Source: an uncultured Pseudomonadota bacterium
GTDB lineage: Bacteria; Myxococcota_A; UBA796; SXON01
DNA: 64,000 nt
Assembly: GCA_903844155.1 (NCBI GenBank)
Contig: CAIMSU010000289.1
Span: forward strand, 1-64,000
Direction: 5' to 3'
In this document: in pieces, positions 5,157-24,488 of the stretch
Layout: every line of letters begins with the position of its first letter
Position numbering within the stretch: the stretch's first letter is position 1
Position numbers and translations under genes: made by a program
The notes under the pieces: model-generated
What the model was told of the DNA's origin: nothing
Databases searched by the model: none
Seen by the model: only the letters and a program-made list of their open reading frames with translations

Positions 5157-5702
5157 ATGCCGGAGACCGCTACCCGTCTGCCCCGCGCCCGCACCCTCAC
5201 CACGCCCGAGTGGGCCCAGGTACTTCGCACCTTCTACGCCAAGAGCTTCGACACGGCGTCGGAAGACAGCTTCGTCGAGTCCGTGGAGGCGTTCTGCGCC
5301 CTCTCGCCCGACGAGCAGGCGTTCCACCAGGCGCACCTCGCCTACCGTCAGGTCCAGGGCCTCGACGACATCTACGGGTGCCTCCGGCGCATCGAGGCCG
5401 GGCTCCCGGCGCTCGATCCGAAGGCCCTCGGCGCGCTCCGGCACCTCCCTGGCATCCGCAAGGCGCTCGTCGTCATCGCGAAGGGCCAGGAAGAGATGCT
5501 CGACCTCCTCGAGTCCGGCGCAGGATCGGGCGGCGACGCCACGCGCGGCGACCGCGATGACGATGGCGACGACGACGAGGACGGCGAGCTGGCCGACGCG
5601 GTGGATGCCGACGAGGTCATCGAGAACGAGGACCACGGCGTGAGCGGGGGCGGCGCGCTCGTCCCCGAGGTGCTCCCGGCCCGCACCGTGGTGGTCCCGT
5701 GA
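5157..5702 (+). CDS. Unknown helical protein with acidic C-terminal region
   Basis: 181 residues, preceded by a near-perfect AAGGAGG ribosome site. The first 120 residues look helical and globular; residues about 131-159 are strongly acidic (GDRDDDGDDDEDG); the end is short and hydrophobic (ARTVVVP). No family recognised. It overlaps the next gene by GTGA, so the two are translationally coupled. The repeated use of an Asp-rich linker in two neighbouring genes suggests a shared partner that binds acidic surfaces, but this is inference. Confidence 0.7.
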   Translation: MPETATRLPRARTLTTPEWAQVLRTFYAKSFDTASEDSFVESVEAFCALSPDEQAFHQAHLAYRQVQGLDDIYGCLRRIEAGLPALDPKALGALRHLPGIRKALVVIAKGQEEMLDLLESGAGSGGDATRGDRDDDGDDDEDGELADAVDADEVIENEDHGVSGGGALVPEVLPARTVVVP

Positions 5703-6190
5703 ACGCCGCGTTGCGCGCCGATCCCGCCGCCATGCGGGTCAACCTCACCGTGCCGTCAACGGCGGTGCGGCTCGGGCCGTTCGCGTTCGACGGTCTCAAG
5801 GCGCTGCTCGGCGTGGACCTTGCCGACGTGCTCTCGTCCCTGATGATCGGGCCGAAGTTTGCGCGACCCGTCCTGGGCGGCGTCGTGGACGTGTACCCGC
5901 TCGCGATCCCTGACGGCGAAGGGCTCACGATCCCGATCAAGCTGTTCGGCGAGATCGGCTTCTACAACCTGCACTCGGCGCTCGTGCTCGTGGTGCCGAT
6001 CGCCGCGATGGACCTCGTGACGCCGCAGCTCGCCGCCGAGATCGCGTCGGGTGACGCGGCCGGGCCGAGGGTGCGCGCCGGGAGCAACGGTGGGCACGTC
6101 GCGGAGTACGCGGTCAGGTTGAAGCCGGGGATGCGGAAGGCGGTGCCGCTGGGCAGCTTCGGGGAGCTGGGGGTTGAGGCGGGGGCATGA
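5699..6190 (+). CDS. Unknown protein, third gene of the acidic-linker operon
   Basis: 163 residues from a GTG that overlaps the previous stop (GTGA). The protein is rich in beta-type hydrophobic segments (NLTVPSTAVRLGPFAFDGLKALLG; IPIKLFGEIGFYN) with no signal peptide. No family recognised. Position and coupling make it part of the same operon as the two acidic-linker proteins. The gene ends 112 bases before the next module, which has its own start. Confidence 0.65.
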   Translation: MNAALRADPAAMRVNLTVPSTAVRLGPFAFDGLKALLGVDLADVLSSLMIGPKFARPVLGGVVDVYPLAIPDGEGLTIPIKLFGEIGFYNLHSALVLVVPIAAMDLVTPQLAAEIASGDAAGPRVRAGSNGGHVAEYAVRLKPGMRKAVPLGSFGELGVEAGA

Positions 6191-8871: not shown

Positions 8872-9285
8872 TCACGCCGCCCTCCCCGCCGCCGCTTCCC
8901 CCGCCGGGTCCGGTGCCTTCGGGATCGCGCAGTCCTTGAGCCTCACCGTCAAGCTACGCCCGCTCACGCACTCCCCGACCACCACGAGCCGCTGCCCGCG
9001 CCGGAGCGCCGCGAGCTCGTCGAACGCGGTCTCCGGGAAGGAGCACGCGACCGCGCCGAAGATGGACGCCGGCATGTTCACCACCAGCGCGCCGGAGCTC
9101 GCCCGGTGGACCATGCCCACCTCGCCGGTCACCGACAGGAGCTGCCCCGCGAACTGGCGCTCGGCGGCGAGGCCGTTCTCCTCGAAGGCGGCGACGAGGT
9201 CGTCCGCGTTGATGGCGCGGACCAGCGGCTCGTTGGCGGGCCCGATCTCGGGGATGCTGGGATCTCGCGGATCAAGGATGCGCAT
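8872..9285 (-). CDS. OB-fold protein of the tRNA_anti-like type
   Basis: 137 residues from an ATG with AGGAG six bases upstream. The pattern of a helix, then LLSVTGEV...GALVVNM...AVACSF...LRRGQRLVVVGECVSG...VRLKDCAI fits the small OB-fold family known as tRNA_anti-like, often found on phages and islands. Such proteins are thought to bind nucleic acid or act as inhibitors; the exact role is unknown. It lies just beyond the iteron cluster, on the same strand as the VapE helicase, so it could belong to the replication module as a single-strand-binding accessory. A longer frame upstream runs into the iterons and is not used. Confidence 0.7.
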   Translation of the reverse strand: MRILDPRDPSIPEIGPANEPLVRAINADDLVAAFEENGLAAERQFAGQLLSVTGEVGMVHRASSGALVVNMPASIFGAVACSFPETAFDELAALRRGQRLVVVGECVSGRSLTVRLKDCAIPKAPDPAGEAAAGRAA

Positions 9286-9344
9286 GACGGACTCCTGGGC
9301 GATGAAGCCGGGCCAAAGGGGACCGGCGGGGGAGAGCAAGGGCT

Positions 9345-9597
9345 GGCCACACCTGGCCACACCCCGGCCACACCTCGTGCTGAAGGTGTGGCCGCGAGTT
9401 ACGCGGCTTCACGGCGAAGTTCTCGGGGTGGCCACACCGGCCACACCTCGATCCACCACATTCCTTACGCGCGCGGGTGTGCGCTCCCGCGATGTTGGGA
9501 AAACAGGTGTGGCCGGTGTGGCCGGTGTGGACAACGCGCCTTGCACGCGGGTTCTGGCTGTCCACACCTCGAACGGGAGGTGTGGACAGGTGTGGCC
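9345..9597. repeat. Iteron cluster, probable origin of replication of the island
   Basis: Twelve copies of a 9-mer fill the gap between the OB-fold gene and the VapE gene (9286-9606 holds no gene). Exact GGCCACACC or its complement GGTGTGGCC: 9345, 9355, 9366, 9385 (reverse), 9430, 9439, 9506 (reverse), 9515 (reverse), 9589 (reverse). One-base variants GGTGTGGAC: 9524, 9560 (reverse), 9579. Left-half copies mostly point one way, right-half copies the other, facing a less GC-rich spacer (9448-9505, with TTCCTTAC and GGGAAAACA). Spacings of 9-11 bp match one helical turn. Location next to a primase-helicase operon supports an origin. Confidence 0.7.
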
Positions 9598-9606: not shown

Positions 9607-10833
9607 TCACGCGACCTCGGGGGCGTCAGCGCGGGTCCACATCATCGCGCGACCGTCACCGACGCGGACGCGGCGCTTGGCGTACCCGAGGCGGGCGAGG
9701 ATCGAGGCCACACGCATCCCGTCGCGCTTCGTCTGCCTGCCGATCTCGACAGCCACGGCAGCGCCCAGCACGTCGGCGACCGTGAACGGCTCGCCGCGTT
9801 CGTCGGCCCATTTCTCGATGGGGGCCTCCCAGGCGTCCACCTCGCGGTAGGGCTCCGACGCCTCGACGCGCGCCTCCTCGCCCTCGGCGGAGAGCCACCA
9901 CGTCTCGTGCTGGTCGTACCGCCAGCGAGCCTCAGCCCAGAGCTGATCGCGCTCGGCCGCGAGCGCGTCGAGGTTGATCACCGTCACGGCGACGGGCCAG
10001 AACCGGCGGCTCCCGCTGGGGTCTCGAAGAAATTCGGGCTCGTTCGTGGTGCCGACGAACACCGTCTGCCGGGGAACGTCCACCGTGTTCCGCCCATAGG
10101 ACGGGCGGTAGTGGTCGATCTGCGCGCTGATGTACGCCTTCACCGCGCTCGTCTCGGAGCGACGGAGACTGTCCAGCTCCGCCAGCTCGAAGATCCAGAC
10201 GCCAGGGAGCTGCTGGTAGGCGTCCTTGCTCGCGAAGTCGATGGCGCTGTCGCTGAACCACTCCGGCCCGGCGAGGGTCGCGAACGCGCGGCTCTTTCCG
10301 ATGCCCTGCTGCCCTACGAGGATCAGCACGTTGTCCACCTTGCAGCCCGGTTGCATGACGCGAGCGACCGCGCCCACGAGGAAGCACCGGCCGAACTCGT
10401 GGATGAGCGGGGTGTCCTCAGCGCCGCAGTGCTCGGTCAGCCAGGTCTCGGTGCGGACCACGCCGTCCCAGACGAGGGCGTCGAGGTACTCCCGAGGGCC
10501 GTGCGTCGGGTGCTGGTTGCCGACGTGGCGCACCGCCTCGCCGACCAAGGGGGTTGAGGCACGAATTCCGTACATGCGGGCGATCTCCAGGTTGATGGCG
10601 GTTTCGTCGTCGTCGCGGACGGGCTGTCCATCGACGACGGTGCGGAGGCGGAAGTCGTCGCGCTGGCAGCGGCCGGTGAACTTGCGGTCGCCCTCCAGGA
10701 TCGTGACGAGGTTGAGGAGCGTCGCGAGCGGCACGCCGTCCTTGCCGGTCTCCAGCAGCTCGGCGACGGCGGGATCGGGCGCGACCGGGGTGACGCCGGC
10801 CACGTCCATCGAGGGCGGGGTGTCACTGGACAT
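9607..10833 (-). CDS. VapE-type superfamily 3-like replicative helicase
   Basis: 408 residues. The ATG at 10833 overlaps the primase stop by 11 bases. The AAA+ core of the virulence-associated protein E family is clear: Walker A GQQGIGKSR (about 174-182), Walker B VWIFELAELD (about 212-221), and TTNEPEFLRDPSGSRRFWPV (about 262-281), the family hallmark. Such proteins unwind origins of phages and phage satellites. The C-terminal part has a helical DNA-binding look (TKRDGMRVASILARLGYAKR). The gene ends ten bases from the iteron cluster, which it probably recognises or melts. The first 30 residues are Pro-rich and may be flexible. Confidence 0.85.
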   Translation of the reverse strand: MSSDTPPSMDVAGVTPVAPDPAVAELLETGKDGVPLATLLNLVTILEGDRKFTGRCQRDDFRLRTVVDGQPVRDDDETAINLEIARMYGIRASTPLVGEAVRHVGNQHPTHGPREYLDALVWDGVVRTETWLTEHCGAEDTPLIHEFGRCFLVGAVARVMQPGCKVDNVLILVGQQGIGKSRAFATLAGPEWFSDSAIDFASKDAYQQLPGVWIFELAELDSLRRSETSAVKAYISAQIDHYRPSYGRNTVDVPRQTVFVGTTNEPEFLRDPSGSRRFWPVAVTVINLDALAAERDQLWAEARWRYDQHETWWLSAEGEEARVEASEPYREVDAWEAPIEKWADERGEPFTVADVLGAAVAVEIGRQTKRDGMRVASILARLGYAKRRVRVGDGRAMMWTRADAPEVA

Positions 10834-11725
10834 CGACACCCCCACAGGCACCGTCGAGGAGGGCGTCGAGGAAGCCAGACCACCCGCACGTCTTCCGGTG
10901 GGCGCAGGCGGCTTTGCGCTTTCGTCTGGGGTCGAGCATGAACCATACCGAGGTGCGTCCGCAGGCCGGACACGGGATCTCCTTCGCGCTGATCGCGCCC
11001 ACGCGAGCACCCAGGCGCTGCGCGGCGCGCTCGCGGACCTCGGGGTCGTTGTTCAGCCTGAACTGCGCGACGCGCCGGGCCTGATCGACGCGCACCGGCA
11101 CCGGCGGGAGGGGGCGGCGCGGCGTTGGCGGGGCATCATCGTCGGGCACGACACGAGGCCCGGCGAGGACGGCGTCCACGTCGACGGCGTGACCGTCCCG
11201 ATGCTCATACACGGCCAGGTGCAGGCGCTCGGCGGGGCACGCTGGGATGTACCAGAGCCGCGCCACGTCGCGCGCCTTGCGGTCCGCGTGGCCCCCGAGG
11301 TCGGAGTCGAGCGCGGACCAGACCTTCGGGTACTCGCGCGGCCCGAGCGGGCGCGAAAGCGTGAGCACGACGCGAAAGCAGTTGTCGTCGTCGCCCGCGC
11401 TCTTGTGACTGAACGACGTGTAGAGGAGGTAGGCATAGCCGAGCCGCCGGAGGGCAGCGACGATGCCGCGCGCGACGGCCGCCGGGAGGTGGTCGAAGTC
11501 GAACACCAACGCCGTCACCCAGGTGACCCCGGCTTTCCCGCGTCCCGCGCCGTCCGAGTAGACGGCGAACGACAACGCGGGCGTACCCTTCTTCACGGCG
11601 CGCTCGACGTGGCGGCGCAGCGCGCGAGGCAGCGGACCTTGATCGGGTCGCGGGATCGCGTCCAGCTCGTTGTCGAAGTGGACGAACGCCACGACGTGCT
11701 CGCCGAGGTTGACGATGGCGCTCAT
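10823..11725 (-). CDS. Primase of the archaeo-eukaryotic superfamily with C-terminal zinc ribbon
   Basis: 300 residues from an ATG with GGGGAGG seven bases upstream, overlapping the preceding small gene by ATGA. FDFDHL (about 75-80) supplies the paired metal-binding acids, YTSFSH (102-107), FRVVLTLSRP (117-126) and ARLWYIPACP (155-164) follow the RepB/plasmid-primase pattern, and CPAC...C..H..C near residues 250-285 forms a zinc ribbon. It should make primers on the island's own DNA. Coupled to the VapE helicase by overlapping frames, the usual primase-helicase pair of satellites and prophages. A longer upstream frame through low-complexity sequence is not used. Confidence 0.8.
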   Translation of the reverse strand: MSAIVNLGEHVVAFVHFDNELDAIPRPDQGPLPRALRRHVERAVKKGTPALSFAVYSDGAGRGKAGVTWVTALVFDFDHLPAAVARGIVAALRRLGYAYLLYTSFSHKSAGDDDNCFRVVLTLSRPLGPREYPKVWSALDSDLGGHADRKARDVARLWYIPACPAERLHLAVYEHRDGHAVDVDAVLAGPRVVPDDDAPPTPRRPLPPVPVRVDQARRVAQFRLNNDPEVRERAAQRLGARVGAISAKEIPCPACGRTSVWFMLDPRRKRKAACAHRKTCGWSGFLDALLDGACGGVDVQ

Positions 11726-11874
11726 CGGCGACCTCCCCGGCGACCCTGGGGTCGGTAGGGGCACGGCGGCGGACCGACGTGGAGACCACGCGGGTCGAAC
11801 TTCGGCGGCGGCGGCTGCTTCTGCGGCGGCGTCGGACCCTTGGGGTTGGGCGGCGGGGGAAGGCGCTTCCTCAT
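11722..11874 (-). CDS. 50-residue Pro/Arg-rich small protein
   Basis: A very small frame with an ATG overlapping the preceding stop (ATGA) and a stop overlapping the primase start (ATGA). It is rich in Pro and Arg/Lys (MRKRLPPPPNPKGPTPPQ). Such double coupling is unlikely by chance, so it is probably translated. It may be a small DNA-binding or linker peptide, or may serve mainly to couple translation. No family recognised. Confidence 0.45.
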   Translation of the reverse strand: MRKRLPPPPNPKGPTPPQKQPPPPKFDPRGLHVGPPPCPYRPQGRRGGRR

Positions 11875-12098
11875 CGCGCACCCCCAGCGGCGACGGCGGC
11901 GGCCGCTTCTTCGCGCTCGCGGCGCTTCCATCCGGCGAGCACGCCAAGGAAGCCGCCGAGGTTGGCGACGATCTCGCGGCCGTCCTCCGGCCCGAGCTGG
12001 CGGGTGGTGCGGGGTTGGTATAGAGCAACTGCGCGATCTGCGAGATCACGAGTGCGGGACTCATCTTTTCGAGGACGCTTGGCGGTAACCACGAACAC
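11871..12098 (-). CDS. 75-residue small protein at the head of the replication operon
   Basis: Starts at a GTG inside the perfect palindrome at 12089-12111, and ends overlapping the next small gene. The C-terminal half (LGPEDGREIVANLGGFLGVLAGWKRREREE) looks like a real short helical protein. In a different frame, an ATG at the same place gives a plausible N-terminus (MECSWLPPSVLEKMSPALVI), so either the start is mis-set or an ancient frameshift joined two frames. Small genes here are candidates for a repressor or excision factor. Confidence 0.4.
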   Translation of the reverse strand: MFVVTAKRPRKDESRTRDLADRAVALYQPRTTRQLGPEDGREIVANLGGFLGVLAGWKRREREEAAAAVAAGGAR

Positions 12099-12154
12099 TC
12101 CATGTTCGTGGACGTGGCGGGAACTTCCGGTTCCTTTCTGGAACTCCGGGTTCC
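12089..12154. promoter_or_regulatory. Three palindromes in the control region of the replication operon
   Basis: A perfect inverted repeat CCACGAACA / TGTTCGTGG with a 5-base spacer occupies 12089-12111 and covers the first codons of the operon. Upstream of it are two copies of GGAAC-N5-GTTCC (12120-12134 and 12140-12154), 20 bases apart centre to centre, about two helical turns. Tandem, evenly phased palindromes just before the first gene are the classic layout of phage or island repressor operators. No promoter hexamers are clear. Confidence 0.6.
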
Positions 12155-12167
12155 TTTCACCGGCCGC

Positions 12168-14297
12168 CTACGCCGAAAGCCTCCACGTCATCGTTCCTTC
12201 GGGTTCGTAGGAGAGGTCCGTCCCCTTCTTGATCGTGTTCGCCAAGTGCCTTCCGACGCCGGGATGGCGCTTCTTGATGTTGGCGATGGCCTTGTCGACG
12301 GCCTTCCGCAGCCGGTCGCGGGCCCGGCGGAGTTCGGGTGGCTCCTCGCGTCCCCCGCCGCCGAGTTTGAGATCGGCGGCCAGCTGGTCCTCGATCCGCT
12401 CTCGCTCGATGCGGGCCCGCTCCGCCTCGTCCGGGTCGCCCAACGCCTCATCCTGCCGCAGTTCCTCGACTTTTTCCCGAAGCTCCCGAATTGCCTGGGG
12501 GTCGAGCGTCGCACCAATGCCCGGGACGCTCGCGGGTGGGGCGTCCGAAGGCTGGTCGCCGCGAGCGATGGCCTCCAACGCAAGCACACCGAAGGCCTGG
12601 CGCGGGTGGGCCAGCAGGAGGGCCAGGTACCGCATCCCGTCTGACGATTCGACGAGGCGGGCTTTCGTCCCCTTGAGGCCGACTACCCATGCGGCCCCGC
12701 CGTCGAAGAACGTGTCGCGGGCGAGCGCCTTCTCTTCGAGCACTGCGGTGACCGCCGCAGCCTCCGCATCGGGAGGTGGCGTCGGCGAGGGTGAAGTGGC
12801 GGGCGGCGCGTCCGGCGGCCCCCCGAACCGCCGTTCGCTCGCCTGCAAGCCGGTGCTCAGCACGCGAGCGAGCAATGAGCGCGGGTGAACCGAGCCCGTG
12901 GCCAGGCCCGAGATCCGCGCGGCAGTGAGCCGTCCCATGACGCCCATCACCATCTCGCCCTGACGGCGATGCAGATGGACGACCTCCTCGAGCATCGCGT
13001 CCTGCGAGCGTCCGTGGAGTTCGGCCAGCGCCGGCAGCGCGTCGCCGATCTCCCCGAACGTGGACTGGAATTCCCGAGGCGACACGATCCGGCGGAACGT
13101 CTCCGCGACGTTGACGTAGCCGAGCGCCAGCTTGACCTGTTCGGGCCTGACGAGCGCGTCCGCGAAGAGGTCGAAGTCGTACATCTCCTCGGGATCCTCG
13201 TCCGCCAGCCCTGCGGCGTGCATGGCGAAGCGCCGGTCGACGCATTGGGAGCAGATGCCGCAGAACGGGTGCTGGGTGGTCGCCCAGCGGACGTGCGCGC
13301 AGCTCCGCGAGTGCCGGAGCAGCTGCCGGGCCCCGGCGTCCCGGATGCGCTCAGCAACCTGTTGGCGAGTGAGGAGCTGGTAGGGGTTCTCCGCGACGAA
13401 GGGCTCGCCGATCACCGCGCCGAGCAGCGCTTGAAATCCCACGAGAACCCGTGGGTGAACCGTGCGCGTCGCCCGCGCCCCGAGGATCTCCCCCGCGATT
13501 GGCAGGTTCAGCGCGATGACCCCGTTTTCGTGGAACTTCACCCTCCGCTTTCCGGCGAACCACGCAACGGCGCCCGCGATGGCCGCGAACAACAGAGAGC
13601 GGGAGCGCTGGCTGTCCTCCTTGCGTAGGAGCTCGTCGTGCTTCTGCACGTCGAGGATCACATGGCACGGGGCTGCTCCGACGGGTGCCAGCCGTTGCAG
13701 CTCGGTCACCAGCTCCCTCTGAATGCTCGCCATCTTGGAGGACGAGCCGTGGCTGACCAGCAGCACCTTCCTCTTCTGCACCAGCGCGTGGTCGATCGCT
13801 CCGCCGAGGCTGTCCATGCCGCCGGAAAAGAGCAGCACCTCCTCGAACTGATCGAACGGGATGAAGGTCCGGCCGTTGGTCGGGGGCAGGGAGTCGATGA
13901 CCCGTCCCGCGTCCCCCTTCGCGGCCACGAATTCGAACCGGTAGCTGTCGTCGGACAGGAACCCGGCGGTGGCCTCCAGCAATCGCCGGACATCGGGCGC
14001 GTTCCAGAAATCCGGTTCCGCGACCGGGATCACGAAGCGGAAGTCGCGACGCCAGGTCGCGCCGTTGTCGAGCTTGCCGGGATCCCCCCGGAACGTGGCC
14101 CCGTCCGCTCCGAGGATGAACGACGAGATACAGATGAACTCGCGCAGTCGAGGGGGCAGCTTCCCGGTAAAGCCCTGCTCCATCCCCTCCAACTTGATGG
14201 ACATCTTCCGCCAGTCGCCATCGCCCAGCCCGATCCGCAGCGCGTTCGCGGGCGCGTCGGCATGGGTAGCGCCCGCGCATAGTACCCAGCGGGTCAT
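12168..14297 (-). CDS. QueC-like ATP-dependent enzyme of a defence operon (QatC/Cap9-like)
   Basis: 709 residues, starting on an ATG that overlaps the preceding stop. A PP-loop LLFSGGMDSLGG (about 155-166) and four cysteines (C333, C346, C349, C352 in HPFCGICSQC) match 7-cyano-7-deazaguanine synthase QueC; the zinc site is intact. An N-terminal extension of about 150 residues and a long C-terminal helical region (ending in a Lys-rich domain) are not in housekeeping QueC. Related long QueC-like proteins occur in the Qat system (QatC) and type IV CBASS (Cap9), where deazaguanine is attached to a protein N-terminus. Last gene of the defence operon. Confidence 0.75.
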   Translation of the reverse strand: MTRWVLCAGATHADAPANALRIGLGDGDWRKMSIKLEGMEQGFTGKLPPRLREFICISSFILGADGATFRGDPGKLDNGATWRRDFRFVIPVAEPDFWNAPDVRRLLEATAGFLSDDSYRFEFVAAKGDAGRVIDSLPPTNGRTFIPFDQFEEVLLFSGGMDSLGGAIDHALVQKRKVLLVSHGSSSKMASIQRELVTELQRLAPVGAAPCHVILDVQKHDELLRKEDSQRSRSLLFAAIAGAVAWFAGKRRVKFHENGVIALNLPIAGEILGARATRTVHPRVLVGFQALLGAVIGEPFVAENPYQLLTRQQVAERIRDAGARQLLRHSRSCAHVRWATTQHPFCGICSQCVDRRFAMHAAGLADEDPEEMYDFDLFADALVRPEQVKLALGYVNVAETFRRIVSPREFQSTFGEIGDALPALAELHGRSQDAMLEEVVHLHRRQGEMVMGVMGRLTAARISGLATGSVHPRSLLARVLSTGLQASERRFGGPPDAPPATSPSPTPPPDAEAAAVTAVLEEKALARDTFFDGGAAWVVGLKGTKARLVESSDGMRYLALLLAHPRQAFGVLALEAIARGDQPSDAPPASVPGIGATLDPQAIRELREKVEELRQDEALGDPDEAERARIERERIEDQLAADLKLGGGGREEPPELRRARDRLRKAVDKAIANIKKRHPGVGRHLANTIKKGTDLSYEPEGTMTWRLSA

Positions 14298-15070
14298 TTC
14301 GCGCCCAGCCGAAGCTCGGCGCGCAGCTTCTTCATCGAGTAGCCGATGAACCGGGCTGTGCGCTCGGGCGTCAGGTCGCGCTGGAAGCGCGCCTTCGAGT
14401 ACCAGCCCCCCGCGAAGGTCTCGACGATCTTCGACGCCTGCCGTGCGTGGGTGGCGACCGCGTCCTGGAACGCGCGTTGCTCAGTGGCCGTCTCGAACCG
14501 CTCACCGGAGCCGACGTGGAGGGGCAGCTCGCGGCTGACGTAGTGAACGAGGGTCCGCTCGGTCAGGCGCGCGAAGAAGTCTCGTGCAAAGACGCCGAAC
14601 TTCTGCTCGGTGTAGATCTGGGCTACTGCCGTGCGCGCGGCGTCTGGGTTCAGACCGAACAGGCCGGGGGACCGCTCGAACGCGGCCGCGGCGACCGTCT
14701 CCATCGCCGACAGACGGGCCATCTCTGCGAGGTCCGAGCGCGGCTGTCCGAGCGAGGTGGCGAACGTGTCCACGGCTCGCCCGAGCGCGGAAGCCAGCTC
14801 GGTGGACGACGGGCTGTCCGCCACATCCATCCCGAGCGCGCGCAGGTTGGCGGCGAAGTCGCCGACACGGGCAGCGTCAGGGAGCTGGGTGAGGAGCCAG
14901 ACGGTGCGGACGACGACCGGGTCATCGGCTGCGGCGAAGAACTGGCCTTCGGTCGCGTCGAGCGTCGCGTCGGCGACCTGTTCCGGCGAGCCCCCCTGTC
15001 CGACAAGGTTGATGACCTCGATCCAGCGTTTGGTTCGAGGAAGGCCCCCGCCAAGCCGGTTGTGCCCCAC
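14294..15070 (-). CDS. QueC-partner protein with N-terminal Met-Gly-His-Asn
   Basis: 258 residues from a GTG; the N-terminus reads MGHNRLGGGLPRTKRW. No signal peptide or membrane segment; mostly helical, ending KKLRAELRLGAK. It overlaps the QueC-like gene by ATGA, so the two are made together. After Met removal the chain would begin with Gly, the residue modified by QueC-like enzymes in type IV CBASS. I infer it is the substrate of its neighbour, like QatB in Qat, but sequence similarity to QatB cannot be judged here. Confidence 0.65.
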   Translation of the reverse strand: MGHNRLGGGLPRTKRWIEVINLVGQGGSPEQVADATLDATEGQFFAAADDPVVVRTVWLLTQLPDAARVGDFAANLRALGMDVADSPSSTELASALGRAVDTFATSLGQPRSDLAEMARLSAMETVAAAAFERSPGLFGLNPDAARTAVAQIYTEQKFGVFARDFFARLTERTLVHYVSRELPLHVGSGERFETATEQRAFQDAVATHARQASKIVETFAGGWYSKARFQRDLTPERTARFIGYSMKKLRAELRLGAK

Positions 15071-15102: not shown

Positions 15103-17817
15103 TCATGCCTTCCACCCGCGTGCCAGCCATTTCCGGCGTTCCAACTGATTCAGCACAGTCGAGCAGGATTCCCACGCTACGCGCTCGACCTTCTCGTGGC
15201 ATCGCACCTGGAAGGGGTGAACGGCGGGCACAGAGTCGATCGTCTGCTTGGCCTTCGCGATGTCCCCGAGGGCGACGTTGACCCAGGCGTCTTCGAGCAC
15301 GTCGGGGAGCTGACCGAACATCGACGAGATGTCCTGGAGCCGCTGCGAGAGGAGCTGGTGGACGCGATCCTCGACGGACTCCTTGTAGCGGAGGTTGTAA
15401 ATGAGCACGGTGTCGCGGAGCTGGCCGATCCGCTGGATACGGCCCTTCCTCTGCTCCAGCCGGGTCGGGTTCCAGGGCAAGTCGAGGTTGATCAACGTCC
15501 CGAGGCGTTGGAGGTTGAGGCCCTCGCTCGCGGCGTCGGTCCCGAGGACGAGCCTGATTGTTCCGGCCTTCACCCTCGCCTTGATCGTCTCTCGTGGCGT
15601 GGCCTGGAAGACTCCGCCGGTCAGAACTCCCGAACGTGCGCCACCCGCGTAGTAGGCAATCGGCTCCAGAGGCAGCTCGGCGGTGAGCTGCTCGCCGAGC
15701 GACTGGATCGAGTCGAAATACTGGGAGAACACGATGCAGCCCAGGTCGAGCCAGTGCTCTTCAAGGAGCAGCTTCCGCACCATCAGGTACTTCGGATCGC
15801 CGCTTTGGTCCGCGTTCAGCAAATCGACAAAGAGCTGTAGTTCATCGCGTTCTTTCCCGGTGAGGGCGCGGCCCTGGCCAGCGGCCTTGGCCTCGGACGT
15901 CGCCTCCTCGGCGAGGTCGTCTTCCTCCCCGCCGTCCTCGATCGCCTCCCACTCGTGGAGCATCCGAAGCGCAGTGCTTCGCCCGGCCTCGATGGAGCTC
16001 CCGAGGCGGCGGAGCAGGAGGGTCTTCAGGAACCCTGCGGCCTTCACGCGTCCGCCCAGGAGCTTGCAGAAGCTCTCGGCCTGTCGGTACGCATCTTCGA
16101 GGTACGGCGGCAGGGGGATCGCGTCCTCGTCACGCTCGCCGCGAAGGTCCACCGACACCGGCTTCAGGTACGGGTCGCCGGTCTCAGGGTCGATGGTGTT
16201 TTCGAGGTAGTCCCGGCTGCGTCGGATGATGTGCCGGATCACCGGGTTCAGCTCGACGCCGAAGGTGCGCGCCAGCCTCCCGACGCGGCTCCAGTCGGCA
16301 CCGTTGAACACCTCGTCGACCATCTGGTTCGGAACGATCACGTCGTCGCCGATGCCGAGCCGGCCGCGGAGCACCCTGATGTCCTGGTGCTCCTCTTTGG
16401 CCGGGAGGGGGTTCCGGATCCACTGCCAAGCGTCCTTCGGGTCGGCCGGTAGCGGCTCCTTCCCCATGATCACCGGGAGAGCGCGACCGGCGTTCTGCCA
16501 TTGGCTCCACCTGTTTCCAAGCACCCCGACGCGCCCGCGCGCGAGGAGATCGAGGAGGTCGTGAGCCTCGACCGGGTTCATCTGCACCGGCGTCGCAGTA
16601 GCGAGGAGAAGGCTGTGGGTCTGGACCGCAAGCTCTTGCAGGAACGCCATCAGGTTGTTCGGCGTGGCCTTCTCGTCCTCGGCACCTTGCCCGAGGTTGC
16701 GGCGACGGGCACGGTGGGCCTCATCGACGACGACGCAGGCGTAGTTCTGCTTCTTCAGGAACTCGGCCGAGGGGGACTTCGCCGAGATCAGCCCGTAGGA
16801 CACGATGCCGATCCGCCGGGGACAGGCCGCGAGCCCGGCCGGGCCGACCGCCGCGTGCTCGATGCCGTTCTCGTCCACCCACTGCCGCCCGTTCCACACC
16901 GCGCTCGGCACGTCGAGCATGTCCGTAAGCTCGCCTTGCCACTGCCAGATCAGCGTCTTCGGAGCGAGGACGAGGACCGGCTTGTCCGTGTGCAGCGCCA
17001 TGAGCTGCGCCGCCATGCCGAGCTGGATGGTCTTGCCCAGACCAACCTGATCCGCGAGCACGAACCGCGCGCCCTCCGCGGTCAAGTGCGCCTCGAACGC
17101 GCGCTTCACAAAATACTTCTGGTGCTCCCAGAGCCCGACCTCCTTCCGGTAGACCGGGGCCTCGACAATGGCTGCGGCCGGGTCGGCATCGGTGCGCCAG
17201 CTCGCCACGTCGGGGATGACCGACCGCTGGGCGATGCGGCCGATGTCCTCGACGACGAAGTCCGCGAGGTCGCACGCGTCGCCGTGGTTCCAGAGCGCGT
17301 CGAACTCCTCCTGCACCCACGTCGCCGCTTCGGGGGATTCGTCCTCCCAGATCAGCTCGTAATGGAGCTGCCAGCCCTCCCGCGTCTCGTTCGCGCTCCC
17401 GAGAAACGTCGTCTGTCGTCCGTCGGCCATCGTGATCACGCCGGCCTTGCCGTGAAGGAGCCCGAACCGCTCGTGGGGCAGGACGCGGACGCGCAGCTTC
17501 CCGCTCCGCAGGAACCCGTACAGGCGCGTGAACCGAAGCTGCGCGGGAACACCGAATTTCTCCGGCTCCGAGCCGCACCACTCCTGGCGCATCGCAACCT
17601 GGGCGGCCTTCGCCGTCGCGACATCGTGGGGGTTGAGGTGCGAGTTGCACACCACCCGGATCTGCCCCGCCACCGACTCCAGCGCCTCCCCGGCCATTTC
17701 CAGCACGGAAGAGCTGAAGTAGCCGGCGACTCGATCGTACCGCTGCGCCCCGGCGAGCCGGGAGGTCAGGAAGGAGGCATCGAGCGGCGAGCGCCGCGAG
17801 GAGAAGCGGTTGATCAC
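15103..17817 (-). CDS. PLD-SNF2 helicase of an anti-phage cassette
   Basis: 904 residues from a GTG four bases after the methylase stop. The N-terminus is a phospholipase-D-like domain with one half-site: H122 and K124 in LHGKAG, then GSAN (about 140). Superfamily 2 helicase motifs follow: ADQVGLGKT (about 255-263), VVVDEAH (about 362-368), LLATATP, and a C-terminal GRIQRIGQ. The protein should translocate on double-stranded DNA and may cut or remodel it. This PLD plus SNF2 layout recurs next to DUF1156 methylases in defence islands. Confidence 0.85.
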   Translation of the reverse strand: MINRFSSRRSPLDASFLTSRLAGAQRYDRVAGYFSSSVLEMAGEALESVAGQIRVVCNSHLNPHDVATAKAAQVAMRQEWCGSEPEKFGVPAQLRFTRLYGFLRSGKLRVRVLPHERFGLLHGKAGVITMADGRQTTFLGSANETREGWQLHYELIWEDESPEAATWVQEEFDALWNHGDACDLADFVVEDIGRIAQRSVIPDVASWRTDADPAAAIVEAPVYRKEVGLWEHQKYFVKRAFEAHLTAEGARFVLADQVGLGKTIQLGMAAQLMALHTDKPVLVLAPKTLIWQWQGELTDMLDVPSAVWNGRQWVDENGIEHAAVGPAGLAACPRRIGIVSYGLISAKSPSAEFLKKQNYACVVVDEAHRARRRNLGQGAEDEKATPNNLMAFLQELAVQTHSLLLATATPVQMNPVEAHDLLDLLARGRVGVLGNRWSQWQNAGRALPVIMGKEPLPADPKDAWQWIRNPLPAKEEHQDIRVLRGRLGIGDDVIVPNQMVDEVFNGADWSRVGRLARTFGVELNPVIRHIIRRSRDYLENTIDPETGDPYLKPVSVDLRGERDEDAIPLPPYLEDAYRQAESFCKLLGGRVKAAGFLKTLLLRRLGSSIEAGRSTALRMLHEWEAIEDGGEEDDLAEEATSEAKAAGQGRALTGKERDELQLFVDLLNADQSGDPKYLMVRKLLLEEHWLDLGCIVFSQYFDSIQSLGEQLTAELPLEPIAYYAGGARSGVLTGGVFQATPRETIKARVKAGTIRLVLGTDAASEGLNLQRLGTLINLDLPWNPTRLEQRKGRIQRIGQLRDTVLIYNLRYKESVEDRVHQLLSQRLQDISSMFGQLPDVLEDAWVNVALGDIAKAKQTIDSVPAVHPFQVRCHEKVERVAWESCSTVLNQLERRKWLARGWKA

Positions 17818-17820
17818 CCG

Positions 17821-20739
17821 CTACACCGAGTCGTTGCGGAGGGCGCCGGCGAGGAGGCGGGCACCCTCAGCGTCGGCCGTCCAATGGGGCAGCGTCATCC
17901 CGAGCCTCGAAAGGTAGTCAAGAATCCCGATGACGAGCATGCGCTTCGGCCAGTAGTCGGCCAACCCTTCGCGCAGGTAGCCCTTGCCGACTTGAGCGTC
18001 CGCTGCGCGCACCGTCTCACGCACGGCGAACAAGAGGGCGCGCATCGTGGACGCCCCGAAGCCGGCGTTGCCCAGATCGCGCGAGCCGAACTCGGACGCC
18101 GTCCTGATGCGCGTCTGGTTTACCTTGTTCGTTTCGATCAGCCCTTTGTAGTCCTTGACGCGGAATCCTCGGGCAAGCTCAGTGTACACGCCCGAGCGGT
18201 GCTCTCCGTGGGTTTCAACCTCCACGGCCTTGAGATAGAGGCGCTCCTCTGGGCCGAGTTGCTTCCAGTGGTCACCCCCAAAGCCCCTCGGAATCAGAAA
18301 GTCGCACGCGGTGCGCACGGCGTCCGCGATCAGCTCCTCGACCGGGTTCCTTTCCCCGGCCTGCCGGACGCGCGTGAGCTGGTCATGCACGTCGATGTCC
18401 TCGATGCCCTTGAACCGCGTGAGCACTCGAAGCGCAGCGGCGTAGGCGGCGAGCTGGTAGTCGGCGTCCCCGAAGCTGGGATCGTCTTTGTCGTCCAGCG
18501 ACAACATCGACGCAAGTTGGGAGCGAACCTCGTCCTCGACTTGCGGGTGAATCTCGTCGAGGAACGCCGTCTCTGCGGAGGTTTGCTTTCGTAGAACAAG
18601 GAGAACGGTCCCCTGAACGTAGTTGCCGTCCTTCAACGCGCTCGTCGTCTCCGTCGCGATGCACCACGCGGCGGACACGGCCAAGCCCGCTGCCCAGAGG
18701 ATCACTGCGAGATCGGCCCATACTCCAGCGTCCTGGTGGGTGAACATCACCACCTGTCGTCCATTGTCCGGCATCTTAGCCGTCAAATTGCGGTAGGTTT
18801 CGACCATTGCCCGCCGGAAGGTCGCCGGATCTCCGGTGACCGCAAGCGCCCGGCGGGAGTCGGAGTACCAGCCAGGAAAGGAGTCACGAATATGTACGGC
18901 GTACCAAGCCAGGAAATACTCGGTGAGTTCGTGATACATGATGGCGTCGGCATACGGCGGGTCCGTGATCCAGTAGTCGCACTCTTGGTCAATCTTGCGT
19001 GCGTCGCTCGGCACAATCGTCGATGTTCCCGCGATGTCCACTGGCGTCACACCGAACCTGACCGCATCTTCGAGCGCGTCAAGGCCGCGGGCGGCGTAGT
19101 TGTACATCGTGTTCAACGCCTGATTGCTGAACGTGCCTTCGGACTTGTCACCCACGGTGCGCAAGTGCCAACGGCAAAGACGGGAATTGTGGTCGGCGCA
19201 CCTGCCGAGCGCGAGCGCACCAACCATGCGTCCAAGTGGGTCCGAGCTGCCAAAGATCCGTGCGGTGGCCTCGGACATCAACCCCAGCATCAGGAGCTGC
19301 CGAGGCGTGTACAGGTGGTGCCACCACGTCCATCCTCGGGTCCGGATCGGCTCGTCGGTTTTCGCGCCCGGGGTGATCAGCTGGTTCGGGATGAACCCGG
19401 CCCGCTGCCAACGCTCGAACCGCTCGGCGAGCAGCGTCCGCACCTTCGCCTCGCGGGCCAGATCCTCCGGGCCCACGGAGCAGTAGTGCCTCTCCATCTG
19501 CGGCTTGTCGTCTTCATCGACCCAACGCTCCACCCAACGGATGCAGTACAGGCGCTCGTAGAATGGCTCCCCCGGTCGGCCTTCGATGTCCTCTCGCTCC
19601 CACCGTCGCAGCCCGTTTGCGAATCCCCCTTCACCGCGGCGATCGCCGCGGACCATCGACATTGGGGACTCGACAGCGCAGTGCGGGCAGACGAGCCGGG
19701 CGTCACGAACGCTTCCTTCACGATGGCGCTCGTACTCGTCGGGCGCGAGATCGGACTGAATCTCGATGCCGAATCTACGCGTCGCGTTGTCGGGGCGGAG
19801 GATTGCGGCTGCGCGATACTTGTCGCTGACGCACCAAGTCCCTGAGAGCGGAACGATCCAGGCGCATTCTGGACACGCGACCTCGACGCAGTACAGGAAT
19901 GCGTCGGCCCGCCACGCCGCCTCGTTCGTCTCAATCGCCCAGTCCGTGAACTGCCCGCTTACATCGGCCCATAGCCGTTCCTGCGCGGCCTCGATGCGCG
20001 GCCCCGCGTCGGCGCCTGCGCCCGCGACGTGGAGCGCGGCCCAGCTCATGAGAGTCGCCATCGGATTCAGGTCAGAACCCAGTGCGGAACACCCGATTCG
20101 AGCGGCCTCGAAGGGCACACTCCCGCCTCCGCAGAAGGCATCGCCGACCCGCGGCCTGCGCCCGAACCGCTGGTGGCCCAACTCGTCTACGAGCGCCGGG
20201 ATCGATGTGACCGAGGTGCCGAGGTGTCGGTTGATGCGTGCCCACGCAGCCGCGCTGGGACCAGGGACGTGCTCCGGGCGGCCACTGTACCCGAGGCGTT
20301 CGTCGTAGGTCATGCGCGAAAAGACGAGCTTCTGGAGTAGGTCGCGGTCCGCGCGCGTGGCACCCCGTTTCAGCTTCGGCTTCTCGTTCGGCTCCACGGC
20401 TTGAAACGATTTCGCTCTCTCCGCGGGGTGGAGCAGTCGGTACACTTCGGCGAGCGGAATCGGCTTCGAGCGGCGAAGTTCGAGCCCCTCATCGTCCATC
20501 GTCATCAGGGCCTGGAACACCGCGCGATCGGACGCAGGATCCGATGTAGAAGGCAGCAGGAGGCCGAGGACGGTCGCCCGTACCAAGACCAGCGGTTTGC
20601 GGCCCCACCACTTCCCAAGCCCGGTCAGCGTCTGCCCGTTCTTTGCGTCCCGCTCGCCGTAGCTCTCCTTCGAGAGCTTGGAGACGGGAAACTGGGTCTC
20701 GATAAAGCTCGGCGCATTCTTCCAGTCGATAGCGGCCAT
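17821..20739 (-). CDS. DUF1156 adenine-specific DNA methylase, anti-phage associated
   Basis: 972 residues. The N-terminal WWGRKP (about 44-49) is the DUF1156 signature. An SAM-binding FCGGGS (about 202-207) and a catalytic DPPY (593-596) mark an N6-adenine methylase with the motifs split by a large insertion that carries CPEC (289-292) and CPHC (351-354), likely a zinc site for DNA recognition. Neighbours (DUF499, DUF3780, PLD-helicase) are the known partners of this family. Methylation probably protects self DNA. The gene starts 18 bases after the DUF3780 stop, same operon. Confidence 0.88.
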   Translation of the reverse strand: MAAIDWKNAPSFIETQFPVSKLSKESYGERDAKNGQTLTGLGKWWGRKPLVLVRATVLGLLLPSTSDPASDRAVFQALMTMDDEGLELRRSKPIPLAEVYRLLHPAERAKSFQAVEPNEKPKLKRGATRADRDLLQKLVFSRMTYDERLGYSGRPEHVPGPSAAAWARINRHLGTSVTSIPALVDELGHQRFGRRPRVGDAFCGGGSVPFEAARIGCSALGSDLNPMATLMSWAALHVAGAGADAGPRIEAAQERLWADVSGQFTDWAIETNEAAWRADAFLYCVEVACPECAWIVPLSGTWCVSDKYRAAAILRPDNATRRFGIEIQSDLAPDEYERHREGSVRDARLVCPHCAVESPMSMVRGDRRGEGGFANGLRRWEREDIEGRPGEPFYERLYCIRWVERWVDEDDKPQMERHYCSVGPEDLAREAKVRTLLAERFERWQRAGFIPNQLITPGAKTDEPIRTRGWTWWHHLYTPRQLLMLGLMSEATARIFGSSDPLGRMVGALALGRCADHNSRLCRWHLRTVGDKSEGTFSNQALNTMYNYAARGLDALEDAVRFGVTPVDIAGTSTIVPSDARKIDQECDYWITDPPYADAIMYHELTEYFLAWYAVHIRDSFPGWYSDSRRALAVTGDPATFRRAMVETYRNLTAKMPDNGRQVVMFTHQDAGVWADLAVILWAAGLAVSAAWCIATETTSALKDGNYVQGTVLLVLRKQTSAETAFLDEIHPQVEDEVRSQLASMLSLDDKDDPSFGDADYQLAAYAAALRVLTRFKGIEDIDVHDQLTRVRQAGERNPVEELIADAVRTACDFLIPRGFGGDHWKQLGPEERLYLKAVEVETHGEHRSGVYTELARGFRVKDYKGLIETNKVNQTRIRTASEFGSRDLGNAGFGASTMRALLFAVRETVRAADAQVGKGYLREGLADYWPKRMLVIGILDYLSRLGMTLPHWTADAEGARLLAGALRNDSV

Positions 20740-20757: not shown

Positions 20758-21396
20758 TCAGGTCGCGGCGCGGCGCTTGGGCCGGGTCGCGGGGGGCGTT
20801 TCAGCCTCGTTGGGCTCGGAGAAGAGCGCCAGGTGTCGAGGCTGGGGGAGGAGGGAGGGGTCGGAGACAGGGTTGTCGGTGAGAGCGTACCGCACCGCGA
20901 CGCGCCATCCACGGCCGCGCCCCTGGATGGCGTGGCCGGTGGCGGCACTGGTCATCGTGTAGAGCCACCACCGCTCTTCGGGGGCCAGGCCGAGCCAGTT
21001 CTGGATGGCGACCGGGATGCGGCCGGGATCGGCATCCTCGATCGCCCAGGCAAGGAGCACCAGCTCCTTGCCGAACGACCGGGACAGCGGCACCTTGCCC
21101 ACCTTCCACTGGCCCGCCTTGCCCCCGACCTTCCGCAGCCGGGCGTTGAACTCCTGCCGGACGGCCTCCGCGATCGCGTCCCAGCGGTGCCGGTCGAGAG
21201 AGGCACGGATGATGTGGTCGCCGCTCATGGCGTAGGTGAGCTGATCGTCCTCTACCGACCCCGACCACGACAGGTGCTCGGTGATCGTCACCTCAGCGCG
21301 GTTGCCGTTCGGCACCCACAACAAGAAGTGTTGCTCGGACTCCTCGGGGGAGAAGCCGAAGCCGAGGGTGGCAGCCCGCGCGCTCACTGCTCCCAT
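20758..21396 (-). CDS. DUF3780 protein of the anti-phage cassette
   Basis: 212 residues, with the pattern FGFSPEESEQHFLLWVP...VPLSRSFGKELVLLAWAIED...WWLYTMT, matching the DUF3780 family that accompanies DUF499 and DUF1156 proteins. Biochemical role unknown; always found with the ATPase and methylase, so probably an adaptor. Two starts are possible: ATG at 21396 (13-base overlap with the DUF499 gene) or GTG at 21387 overlapping its stop (GTGA). Confidence 0.8.
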   Translation of the reverse strand: MGAVSARAATLGFGFSPEESEQHFLLWVPNGNRAEVTITEHLSWSGSVEDDQLTYAMSGDHIIRASLDRHRWDAIAEAVRQEFNARLRKVGGKAGQWKVGKVPLSRSFGKELVLLAWAIEDADPGRIPVAIQNWLGLAPEERWWLYTMTSAATGHAIQGRGRGWRVAVRYALTDNPVSDPSLLPQPRHLALFSEPNEAETPPATRPKRRAAT

Positions 21397-24300
21397 TCTC
21401 CGGATTTCAGCGTGGTCTTCGCTTCAGCGATCCAGTCCAGGAGAAGTTGGCCCGTGGGGAAGAGCAGCTTGCCGGCGCTCACGTCGATGGAGATCGCGTC
21501 GCCCTCGACGACCGGGCGCACGTTCTCGATGGCGCTCTCGATGACCTCCGCCGTGACGTGCAGGCGCTCGCCGAGGTTCAGCTCGGCCCAGGCGTCGCTC
21601 GTGTTCTCCCGCGTGAGGTAGACCTGGACGAGGACGAGCCGGGCCTGGTGCTTCTTGACGCGGGCGAGGAAGTCGTATGTGTCTTTCGTCCCTTTCGGGG
21701 AGTGACCGCGCTTCCAGGTGACCGGACGGGCAGGATCGAGCTTGGGGCCGGTCCCGCCGTCGCGGGGCACGTCGAACCGCAGGGTCGGCGAGTAGACGCC
21801 CGCCTTCTCCGCGACCGCCAGGACGAGGGCGGGCCGCTCGACCGCGAACGGGTCGGTGTACACGCCGCCTGCGTGGCGGGGCTCGCTCCCGTCGGTCGTG
21901 TAGCGCACCGTCGCGGTGGGTGCGGAGAGCAGCCGGACGCGCGTACCACCGGCGTCCTCGAACACACCCGCCCTGAGGACGGCCGGCTTGGTCCACTCGA
22001 CGGCCTCGCCGGTAGCGTGCTTCCCCGAGGAGTCCACGCAGAGGAAGGAGATCTTCACCTCAGTGGTGTCGTAGGGGACGGTGTGGTCGATCTTCGTTGA
22101 GGCCGCCGTCGCCTTGGCGCCGATCTCGGCGTAGACGGTGTCGCCGTTCACGGGGGTCAGGCGCAGGGTGACCACCCCGGTCTCCGGGTTGCGCTCCCCG
22201 TCCTTGATTCGCAGTTCGGTGCAAGGCGGGGGGAAAGGCCCCTTGTCCACGTAGTTACCGTTCTCGCGCCACTGCTGCTTCCCGACGAGGTCGTCCTTCA
22301 ACTTTTCGAGGGCGTCGGCGCGATGCCACTGCCACTTCGGCGTGGTGGCGGCCCGGCGCTTGATCTCGGCCCACTGCATCTCCCGCTGGGTGAAGATCCG
22401 CTGCTCCACCTTCTTCTTGAAGGTCTCGCCCGAGACCTCCTCGGTGAATTTCTGCTTCTGGGTCAGCGCAGCTCGCACCTGTTGCTCGCCCTTGTAGACG
22501 TTGTCCTTGAACTCCATCGTGAAGTCCGCGATCCGGAGTCCGGTGTCGCTCGGGAACCAGAGCTGGGTGAACGTCTCGCGGGCGGCCGACAGGAGCCGCA
22601 CCTGGATGCGGTCTTGCAGCTTCAGCGCTTCCTGCCGCTGGGGATCCTTGTCCGGCACCTTGTCCGCGTCCATCTCGCCGATGATCGTCTCGATGGCGCG
22701 TGACTCGGCGGCAACGGTGAGCAGCGATTGGAGCGTCTCTTTCGAGCCCGTCAGAAAGCCGACCCGGTTCTTGAACTCGAGCTGGTCGTAGTAGGTCCGA
22801 AGGTCGGGATGGATGTCCGCCCCGACTTGCGGTGCCGCGTGCGGCTCGTAGATGACGAGGGCCACGCGATCAGCGCCGACCTGGATCTCGTCGATGGCGG
22901 GCAGGACGTAGAGGTGCTGGTAGCAATCCTTCAAGGCGGGGGCGAACATCTCTTCGAGGCGCTTGCGCAGCTCGCGGCGCATCAACTCGGGGTTGCACGC
23001 CCTCGCGAGCGTCTGGAGCTTCGCGACGACGTTCTGCGTGTTCTTGAAGAAGAGCCGACCGTCGCGGCCCTGGTGGAGGTACCACGCCGCAGAGCCGAGC
23101 TGCGAGAGTACCTCGTGGCGGAGTCGCCCGACGTCGCGCCCCGGCGCGCACATGTAGTGGATGACCTCGGACTCCGTGAGCCCCAACGTCGCGTTCGACA
23201 CATTCGAGAGGGAGGAGACCAGGAGCAGCTTGCACACGTCGCTGGCGTCCGTGCCGCCGCGGTTGAAGTCCATCAACTCCGCCACCGCCTGCCCGTTGGC
23301 GGCAATGTCGTGCGGGATCGAGTTCGTAAGCGAGTTGTTGATGAGGTCGATCTGGCCGGTCGTCTCCTGGTTGTTCAGGTCGAGGTCGAAGGGTGCGACG
23401 AGGTAGCGCCCCTTCGCCCAGCCCGTGTCCGGGTCGTACATGCGGGACAGCATCACTCTCATCAGCCGCAGGATGCCGCGGGTCTGCTGAAAGCCTGGGT
23501 TCTCCTTGAAGCGCGCGTAGAGGTCGCGGATCGCTGGATGGAACGGGTAGGACTGCTTGACCGCCGCCGCGAATTGTTCAGGGGAGGCGCTGGTGATCTC
23601 CATCTGGCGCGCCTCGCGCACCGCTGCCGCGAATCCCTGGGCCACCTCATCGATCTCCGCCTCGGATGGGAGCGATCCGAAGAGTCGCTTGCGCAGGATG
23701 TTGTAGAGGTCGTCGTTGTTGGCCTGGACGGGGGAGAGCTGCAACGCGCTCCGGGTGGTCTCGTCCTGGAGGTCTTTGAGCAGCTTCTGGATCTGCTCGC
23801 TGCCTTCCTCATAGTTGGCCCGAAGGTCCGTGATGACGACGCAGACGTTTGACAGCTCCTCCTTGCCGACGGCGACGAAAAGGTTGGCGAGTGCCGTCAC
23901 CGTCAAGACAGCCAGGTTCGTGTCCCCGATCGTGCGACCCTTCGCCCCCACGAGGTAGGGCGGCAGCTCGTCGATGAGGATGAGCTTTGGTTCGCCTTTC
24001 AGGAGGTTGATCCAAGCCCCTTGTCCCGGCGGCTGCAAGGGCGTGTAGAGATCCTTGAACAGCTCCTTCTTGCCGAGCTGATCGGCGAGCGACCCCCAAA
24101 AGCCAAGCGGCGCGTCGCTCTCCCTACCCGAGAAGCCGAGCACCTTCACCTTCCCGAGCCCAGTTGCGGTGTAGGCGTCGCCGATCACGGCCTTGCGCAG
24201 CTCCGGGTGCTTCGCGAGCAGGCCCAGCGCGATCAGGTTGTGCGTCTTGCCGCCGCCCATCGCCTGAGTGAGGGTGAACACGCCGTGCGGCGAGTCCCCG

Positions 24301-24488
24301 GAGAACCGGCGGAATGCCTCTCGCAACAGGGTTTTCATCCCGTCCGTGGCGAAGTTCTCGCCAAAGAACTCGTCCGCATTGATGCGCTCGCCGGGGGCCA
24401 GCAGGTCCGTCAAATCGAGGACCGTGTCTCTCTTCGCGGCGTCGAACACGCTCGCGCGGGGCTTACAAGCATCAAGGAGCGACTTCAT
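21384..24488 (-). CDS. DUF499 AAA-type ATPase of the anti-phage cassette
   Basis: 1034 residues. AMGGGKTHNL (Walker A, about 76-85) and KLILIDELPPYL (Walker B, about 168-179) in the arrangement of DUF499 ATPases. The large remainder is helical, with a beta-rich part near the C-terminus (FEDAGGTRVRLLSAPTATVR) and a final DUF499-type domain. These ATPases are thought to sense or process foreign DNA. First gene of the leftward six-gene operon; 118 bases separate it from the divergent HhH gene, so a shared control region is likely there. Confidence 0.85.
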   Translation of the reverse strand: MKSLLDACKPRASVFDAAKRDTVLDLTDLLAPGERINADEFFGENFATDGMKTLLREAFRRFSGDSPHGVFTLTQAMGGGKTHNLIALGLLAKHPELRKAVIGDAYTATGLGKVKVLGFSGRESDAPLGFWGSLADQLGKKELFKDLYTPLQPPGQGAWINLLKGEPKLILIDELPPYLVGAKGRTIGDTNLAVLTVTALANLFVAVGKEELSNVCVVITDLRANYEEGSEQIQKLLKDLQDETTRSALQLSPVQANNDDLYNILRKRLFGSLPSEAEIDEVAQGFAAAVREARQMEITSASPEQFAAAVKQSYPFHPAIRDLYARFKENPGFQQTRGILRLMRVMLSRMYDPDTGWAKGRYLVAPFDLDLNNQETTGQIDLINNSLTNSIPHDIAANGQAVAELMDFNRGGTDASDVCKLLLVSSLSNVSNATLGLTESEVIHYMCAPGRDVGRLRHEVLSQLGSAAWYLHQGRDGRLFFKNTQNVVAKLQTLARACNPELMRRELRKRLEEMFAPALKDCYQHLYVLPAIDEIQVGADRVALVIYEPHAAPQVGADIHPDLRTYYDQLEFKNRVGFLTGSKETLQSLLTVAAESRAIETIIGEMDADKVPDKDPQRQEALKLQDRIQVRLLSAARETFTQLWFPSDTGLRIADFTMEFKDNVYKGEQQVRAALTQKQKFTEEVSGETFKKKVEQRIFTQREMQWAEIKRRAATTPKWQWHRADALEKLKDDLVGKQQWRENGNYVDKGPFPPPCTELRIKDGERNPETGVVTLRLTPVNGDTVYAEIGAKATAASTKIDHTVPYDTTEVKISFLCVDSSGKHATGEAVEWTKPAVLRAGVFEDAGGTRVRLLSAPTATVRYTTDGSEPRHAGGVYTDPFAVERPALVLAVAEKAGVYSPTLRFDVPRDGGTGPKLDPARPVTWKRGHSPKGTKDTYDFLARVKKHQARLVLVQVYLTRENTSDAWAELNLGERLHVTAEVIESAIENVRPVVEGDAISIDVSAGKLLFPTGQLLLDWIAEAKTTLKSGEWEQ

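Follow-up and report, generated by a model that had tools for sequence, protein, structure and literature searches.

Two described immune systems provide the closest points of comparison for the locus considered here. In type IV CBASS, the QueC-family enzyme Cap9 conjugates 7-carboxy-7-deazaguanine (CDG) to an N-terminal glycine; Cap9 and QueC hold the deazaguanine with a Tyr/Asp pair, whereas QatC, the related enzyme of the Qat system, has Thr-x-Thr instead (PMC13279940). QatB and QatC alone are sufficient for defence against some phages, and defence is lost in the QatB G2D mutant and in QatC PP-loop or Thr mutants (PMC13279940). QatC enzymes carry a signature composed of D..R..WxR, DxY/WxxxF, SGGxDS, RxR, ENG, Thr-x-Thr, HP, PxxxxT(K/R), a Cys4 zinc site, and a Tyr (PMC13329287, PMC13279940). 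Here, we describe a two-gene mobile module that, judging from its genes and their relatives, most likely acts against phages or plasmids in the manner of QatBC and Cap9-CdnD, a reading to which we assign a probability of roughly 0.58.

The window (the whole 64,000-nucleotide stretch of DNA that was analysed) encodes, on the minus strand, an all-helical protein of 258 amino acids belonging to no known family (the "MGH" protein, the putative substrate protein; positions 14294..15070) and a QatC-like PP-loop enzyme of 709 amino acids with a C-terminal extension (12168..14297). The two ORFs share 4 nt and correspond to those of the original prediction, which had described a partner beginning MGHNRLG that overlaps a QueC-like gene. 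The N-terminus of the partner is MGHNRLGGGLPRTKRW, read from a GTG start codon, and its motif M-G-H-N-R-L-G-G-G-L-P-R-T-K-R-W (15023..15070, minus strand) includes Gly2 as the putative acceptor. An in-frame TAG sits immediately 5' of the GTG, which rules out a longer start; a different true start would have counted against the prediction, and the start is confirmed. Wherever both genes of a homologous locus are in range, the enzyme gene lies immediately 3' of the partner gene, typically with an overlap of 4–11 nt; the pair is obligate and widespread. As had been expected, no searched library or paper names such a pair, and a literature search for a named system covering it returned just the QatC and Cap9 papers.

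The enzyme is matched by the PADLOC QatC profile (9.8e-49) and by QatC in the PDB, both in sequence (1.6e-24) and in fold (9y02_B; E 3.7e-17, TM 0.71 by target), and it also matches the fold of Cap9 (9nto_B; E 1.2e-3). It differs from Qat enzymes in scoring under the cut-off of the NCBIfam QatC equivalog model NF041925 (178 vs. 280 bits; three relatives reach 201–216 bits) and in having an extra, swappable C-terminal domain. Assignment as a canonical QueC was rejected: the 2pg3 fold is matched at E 1e-5 and PF06508 at only 15 bits (cut-off 22), and, while the PP-loop and zinc site are shared with canonical QueC, the substrate residues differ and the enzyme has large extensions.

The catalytic signature of QatC is kept across 48 aligned partner-linked enzymes, with Ser in place of the first Thr in 18 of them and with a spacing of the zinc Cys residues that differs from the QatC signature. 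The PP-loop SGGMDS (residues 158–163; 13809..13826, minus strand, as for all motifs given here) has S158, G159, G160, D162, and S163 each in 48/48 enzymes. R231 and R233 are equally invariant (48/48) in the RxR at residues 231–233 (13599..13607), which corresponds to the ATP-site motif of QatC (QatC R233; PMC13279940). The QatC-type substrate motif T-R-T-x-H-P (residues 277–282; 13452..13469) replaces the Tyr-x-Asp of Cap9 and QueC: T277 and T279 align with QatC T278 and T280, the former being Thr in 30 and Ser in 18 enzymes and the latter Thr in 47 and Ser in one, and H281 and P282 are found in all 48. All four Cys of the zinc site C333...C346-G-x-C349-x-Q-C352 (13242..13301) are likewise present in 48/48. 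Both the PP-loop and the zinc site, given as intact in the original prediction, are preserved in the window enzyme and in every aligned partner-linked relative. Loss of the PP-loop in relatives would have weighed against the prediction, and it was encountered only in the absence of a detected MGH partner, in a distant QatC-like relative with the degraded loop TGDLAS (L020:8462-10516). Two small ORFs near this gene resemble, by eye, those at window positions 5157-6190. A second QatC-like gene for which no MGH partner was detected (L026:4072-6804) has a C-terminus that appears by eye to be a calcineurin-type phosphoesterase. A tree built from 61 enzyme cores places all ten Qat enzymes in a single group (support 99/94); opposite it fall the partner-linked enzymes and the two outliers L026 and L020. 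The enzyme family is a sister group of Qat QatC.

There is no match to the partner in Pfam, PADLOC, or NCBIfam. Its AlphaFold2 model is all-helical (pLDDT 91.7, pTM 0.89), with residues 1–6 predicted to be disordered (pLDDT below 50), and fold searches of the PDB and of BFVD (viral structures) gave no match with E <= 0.001; the PDB library searched includes QatB-QatC entries. The partner also lacks a match to NF041924 (QatB), and profile comparison with QatB gave an hhalign probability of 1.6%. Identification of the partner as QatB was accordingly rejected, and the fold shared with QatB that had been anticipated was found neither by profile nor by structure.

The arrangement nevertheless parallels Qat, in which the gene of a small all-helical Met-Gly partner likewise immediately precedes that of a QueC-like enzyme sharing the fold and the active-site signature, including Thr-x-Thr. 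Conserved Leu, Pro, and Trp residues occur shortly after Met-Gly in both partners: in eight QatB sequences, M-G-T-S is followed by invariant Leu16, Pro18, and Trp20. The motifs themselves differ (MGHxRLGxLPxTxxW vs. MGTS...PLVPxW), as does the tail, which is short in the MGH partner vs. 30–90 residues in QatB; moreover, qatA (KAP ATPase) and qatD (TatD) were not found near the window pair, which has a VapE-type gene and a BREX-related cassette as neighbours. With Cap9-CdnD of type IV CBASS, the pair has in common a QueC-family enzyme and a companion protein with a Gly acceptor at its N-terminus, but there is no CD-NTase or Cap10 among its annotated neighbours, the nucleobase-binding Tyr/Asp of the enzyme is replaced, and the partner is unrelated by fold search.

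A seed alignment of eight partners was used to retrieve homologous loci, yielding 73 genome loci and 18 viral-contig loci. About 90 further pairs were found, a figure that counts loci rather than independent lineages because two routes sometimes led to the same contig. They are distributed across many phyla (Myxococcota, Planctomycetota, Bacteroidota, Chloroflexi, Nitrospirae, Bacillota, Pseudomonadota, and others), including viral or mobile contigs; a Leptospira plasmid likewise carries the pair, and many of the carrier hosts are metagenome-assembled genomes (MAGs). The host of the window is probably myxococcal, close relatives belonging to Myxococcota, Polyangia, and Deltaproteobacteria. Searching with the enzyme gave a few close relatives, in the class and phylum of the host, and a genome scan by the enzyme alone, using window-specific patterns, gave no match.

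The consensus of 85 complete partner N-termini is MGHxRLGxLP(R/K)TxxW. Variation of Gly2 among homologues was a further outcome that would have counted against the prediction, and Gly2 is present in 85/85; His3 (one Gln) and Trp15 (Trp16 in the window) are each found in 84, Arg5 in 82, Leu9 and Pro10 in 80, and Gly7 in 79. The only invariant columns in partner alignments of 83 and 84 rows are M1, G2, W16, W223, K226, and K248, of which W223 and K226 belonged to the search pattern for partner loci; the N-terminal motif stays invariant down to ~21% identity. A script assigned the starts to a [MVL]G close to where the profile begins, a procedure that in itself is biased towards Gly2; His3, Arg5, and Trp15 nevertheless fall in register, indicating that the chosen starts are right. 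Retrieval of the loci from the genome collection relied solely on a C-terminal pattern, so the N-terminal conservation is no artefact of the search. The conservation of Gly2 and His3 is far beyond chance.

That His3 is nearly as conserved as Gly2 would also be expected if the N-terminus were a docking peptide, or a metal-binding Gly-His terminus, that carries no covalent modification, and Trp15 and Pro10 do suggest a binding peptide. Such a role would leave the invariant ATP-pyrophosphatase site of the obligate partner enzyme unexplained, and QatB has a parallel requirement for G2 (PMC13279940); we therefore regard it as very unlikely. Rather, because the second residue is always Gly and the enzyme is related to QatC, attachment of a group to Gly2 of the partner is suggested, which would arm or restrain an interchangeable defence domain.

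The identity of the attached group was considered in relation to the host pathway for CDG. The prediction had been one of N-terminal deazaguanine conjugation, of which the glycine, the start, the PP-loop, and the zinc site stand, but the deazaguanine as worded is not supported, the substrate residues T277/T279 being QatC-type. If, as in type IV CBASS, CDG were conjugated to Gly2 and an NDG-type N-terminal deazaguanine resulted, this would accord with the QueC-superfamily fold and Cap9 match of the enzyme and with the invariant Gly2. The host genome of the window encodes PTPS (QueD family; 1.5e-23) and QueE (5.5e-79), so that CDG is plausibly made there; a search of the same genome for canonical QueC found none. 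Most tested genomes of the host phylum, including that of the window, have both QueE and PTPS. Four genomes (G000, G034, G059, and G089) encode PTPS and QueE and have no canonical QueC match, and they seem to make CDG without a recognisable preQ0 synthase. Set against the CDG reading is the replacement of the Tyr/Asp that holds CDG by Thr (or Ser) and Thr, as in QatC, and in Qat the exchange of the QatC Thr pair for Tyr/Asp abolishes defence (PMC13279940). Furthermore, among 50 other carriers, 22 have no QueC above the cut-off, and in eight (G384, G395, G397, G405, G406, G410, G413, and G414) neither PTPS, nor QueC above the cut-off, nor a match to any of three QueE models was detected. These eight argue against a CDG substrate in a suggestive way only, since they are mostly MAGs, in which incompleteness is possible, and since the QueE models are not exhaustive, all three having missed at least one QueC-positive genome (G407). 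We consider CDG unlikely to be the group attached. The conjugated molecule is probably the same substrate as that of Qat, with deazaguanine possible too.

The C-terminal module of the window enzyme (residues ~511–709; 12171..12767, minus strand) consists of a winged-helix-like unit and, after it, a helical coiled region, and may bind DNA. It occupies a swappable position: many relatives have a module of the same type, and others have a TIR domain (L092; 1.9e-15), a Trypsin_2 protease (L076; 9.6e-14; L083 clusters with L076), a DpnII/MboI nuclease (L062 and L079; DpnII-MboI 1.7e-14), or an OmpR-type winged helix (L109; Trans_reg_C 3.9e-8). Intact PD/AD...ExK residues are present in 25 enzymes, a count that is the only informative product of pairwise clustering of the C-terminal domains, which merged most of them, probably via the end of the core that they have in common. 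Residues 522-708 of the window enzyme also match a stand-alone protein that lacks a QatC domain (L008; G069:C522:964-1527), so the window-type module may circulate independently as well. Bacterial immune systems commonly have interchangeable enzymatic ends, and the interchangeable C-termini are the strongest argument for a defence role of the pair.

Directly upstream of the window pair, on the same strand, lies a complete four-gene core of a Type-2 BREX-related system, the published core of which consists of DUF499, a DUF1156 methyltransferase, an HKD/SNF2 helicase, and DUF3780 (PMC12839542). In the window, these are a PLD (HKD) and SNF2 helicase (PLD_Helicase; 15103..17817, minus strand; PADLOC 1.2e-230; Pfam PLDc_2 and SNF2), a DUF1156 adenine methyltransferase (17821..20739, minus strand; PADLOC 2.9e-281), a DUF3780 protein (20758..21396, minus strand; Pfam 1.9e-50), and a DUF499 ATPase with a C-terminal CHB_HEX_C_1/Fn3_assoc domain (21384..24488, minus strand; Pfam 3.1e-26, PADLOC 2.7e-195). 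Neither this cassette nor the exchangeable C-terminus of the enzyme figured in the original prediction. The partner starts only 32 nt past the end of the helicase gene, and DUF499, DUF1156-type, or helicase genes of related cassettes occur near the pair in five other loci (L031, L041, L046, L049, and L118), as would be expected of an accessory that modifies a BREX-related subunit or regulates the system. A DUF499 cassette is missing from the vicinity of most pairs, however, and around several of them no gene was called within 2.5 kb; the published description gives four core genes, and QueC, PP-loop, and queuosine are absent from its text (PMC12839542). An accessory role of this kind is thus improbable, and the pair was rejected as a fixed component of BREX-related systems in general.

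Across pairs, neighbours are frequently restriction, BREX-related, or mobile-element genes. The nearest upstream genes (n = 66; raw counts) include seven Helicase_C/ResIII, four N6-methylase, and two DUF499 genes, with single BsuBI/PstI restriction, GmrSD, AbiEii, and SIR2 genes; recombinases and DUF2924 also occur among them. PADLOC identified Hma, DrmD, and BrxH helicases among upstream neighbours, and downstream neighbours include one Shedu SduA and one type IIG enzyme.

In the window, a large serine recombinase gene (27244-28905) runs at its 3' end into a tRNA-Glu (CTC) gene (28865-28940), from which we infer a mobile element integrated at tRNA-Glu. A search of the window and the contig end for a second att copy of the tRNA-Glu end gave only chance-like matches of 11–16 bases, along with one local inverted repeat. 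Downstream of the pair are a VapE-type gene (1.2e-79) and, preceding it, an ORF with a sub-threshold BT4734-like_N match (together 9607-12160, minus strand), which are probably the replication module of the element; a small protein with a tRNA_anti-like OB-fold domain (8e-10) is encoded near the VapE gene (8872-9360, minus strand). Two ORFs between the recombinase and DUF499 genes (24997-26289 and 26064-27143, both minus strand) have no Pfam match, and one of them has, by eye, a D...ELK motif typical of PD-(D/E)xK nucleases.

These surroundings would also fit a regulatory pair that controls lysogeny, excision, or replication of the element, in which the partner would be the regulator and the winged helix would bind element DNA: beyond the tRNA-Glu gene and recombinase adjoining the window element, up to 25 loci contain ORFs that cluster with serine recombinases, prim-pol and VapE genes lie near pairs, and winged-helix C-termini, such as Trans_reg_C in L109, are found in many members. 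Regulation of this sort is quite unlikely, as TIR, protease, and restriction-nuclease C-termini together with defence-rich neighbours are typical of immunity, and defence genes are often carried by phages and their satellites (PMC9122126).

For the preferred reading, a Qat-like defence module, we propose a sequence of four steps. The initiator Met of the partner would be removed, exposing Gly2, and the flexible partner N-terminus would then enter the active site of the QatC-like enzyme, a docking mode shared with QatBC that is only assumed because the partner is not detectably QatB. The PP-loop would bind ATP, and a carboxylated small molecule in the T-R-T-x-H-P pocket would be adenylated and transferred to the Gly2 amine, consistent with the conservation of these residues. 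Finally, the C-terminal domain of the enzyme itself may be switched by the modification, or when the modification fails or is removed during infection, with outputs that would differ by lineage: a DpnII/MboI-like nuclease, TIR, trypsin-like protease, or winged-helix domain, the window having the winged-helix/coil form. The module would thus be a previously undescribed one that performs ATP-dependent conjugation of an acid to Gly2.

More tentatively, the pair may represent a third immune system of the QueC family, hitherto undescribed, whose fused, interchangeable nuclease, TIR, protease, or DNA-binding effectors are controlled by a small-molecule tag on the N-terminal Gly of a protein of new fold, the tag being a new modification that is shared with Qat and not derived from CDG. 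The MGH-linked enzymes constitute a large independent sister group with a QatC active site, a shorter N-terminal tail, and a different partner fold, and the family offers new proteins with which to find the QatC-type substrate and the effect of the modification; the fused effector outputs (NAD+ loss, proteolysis, and DNA cleavage) are easy to assay. The findings suggest that QueC-family enzymes modify N-terminal glycine as a general strategy of immunity and not just in two isolated cases.
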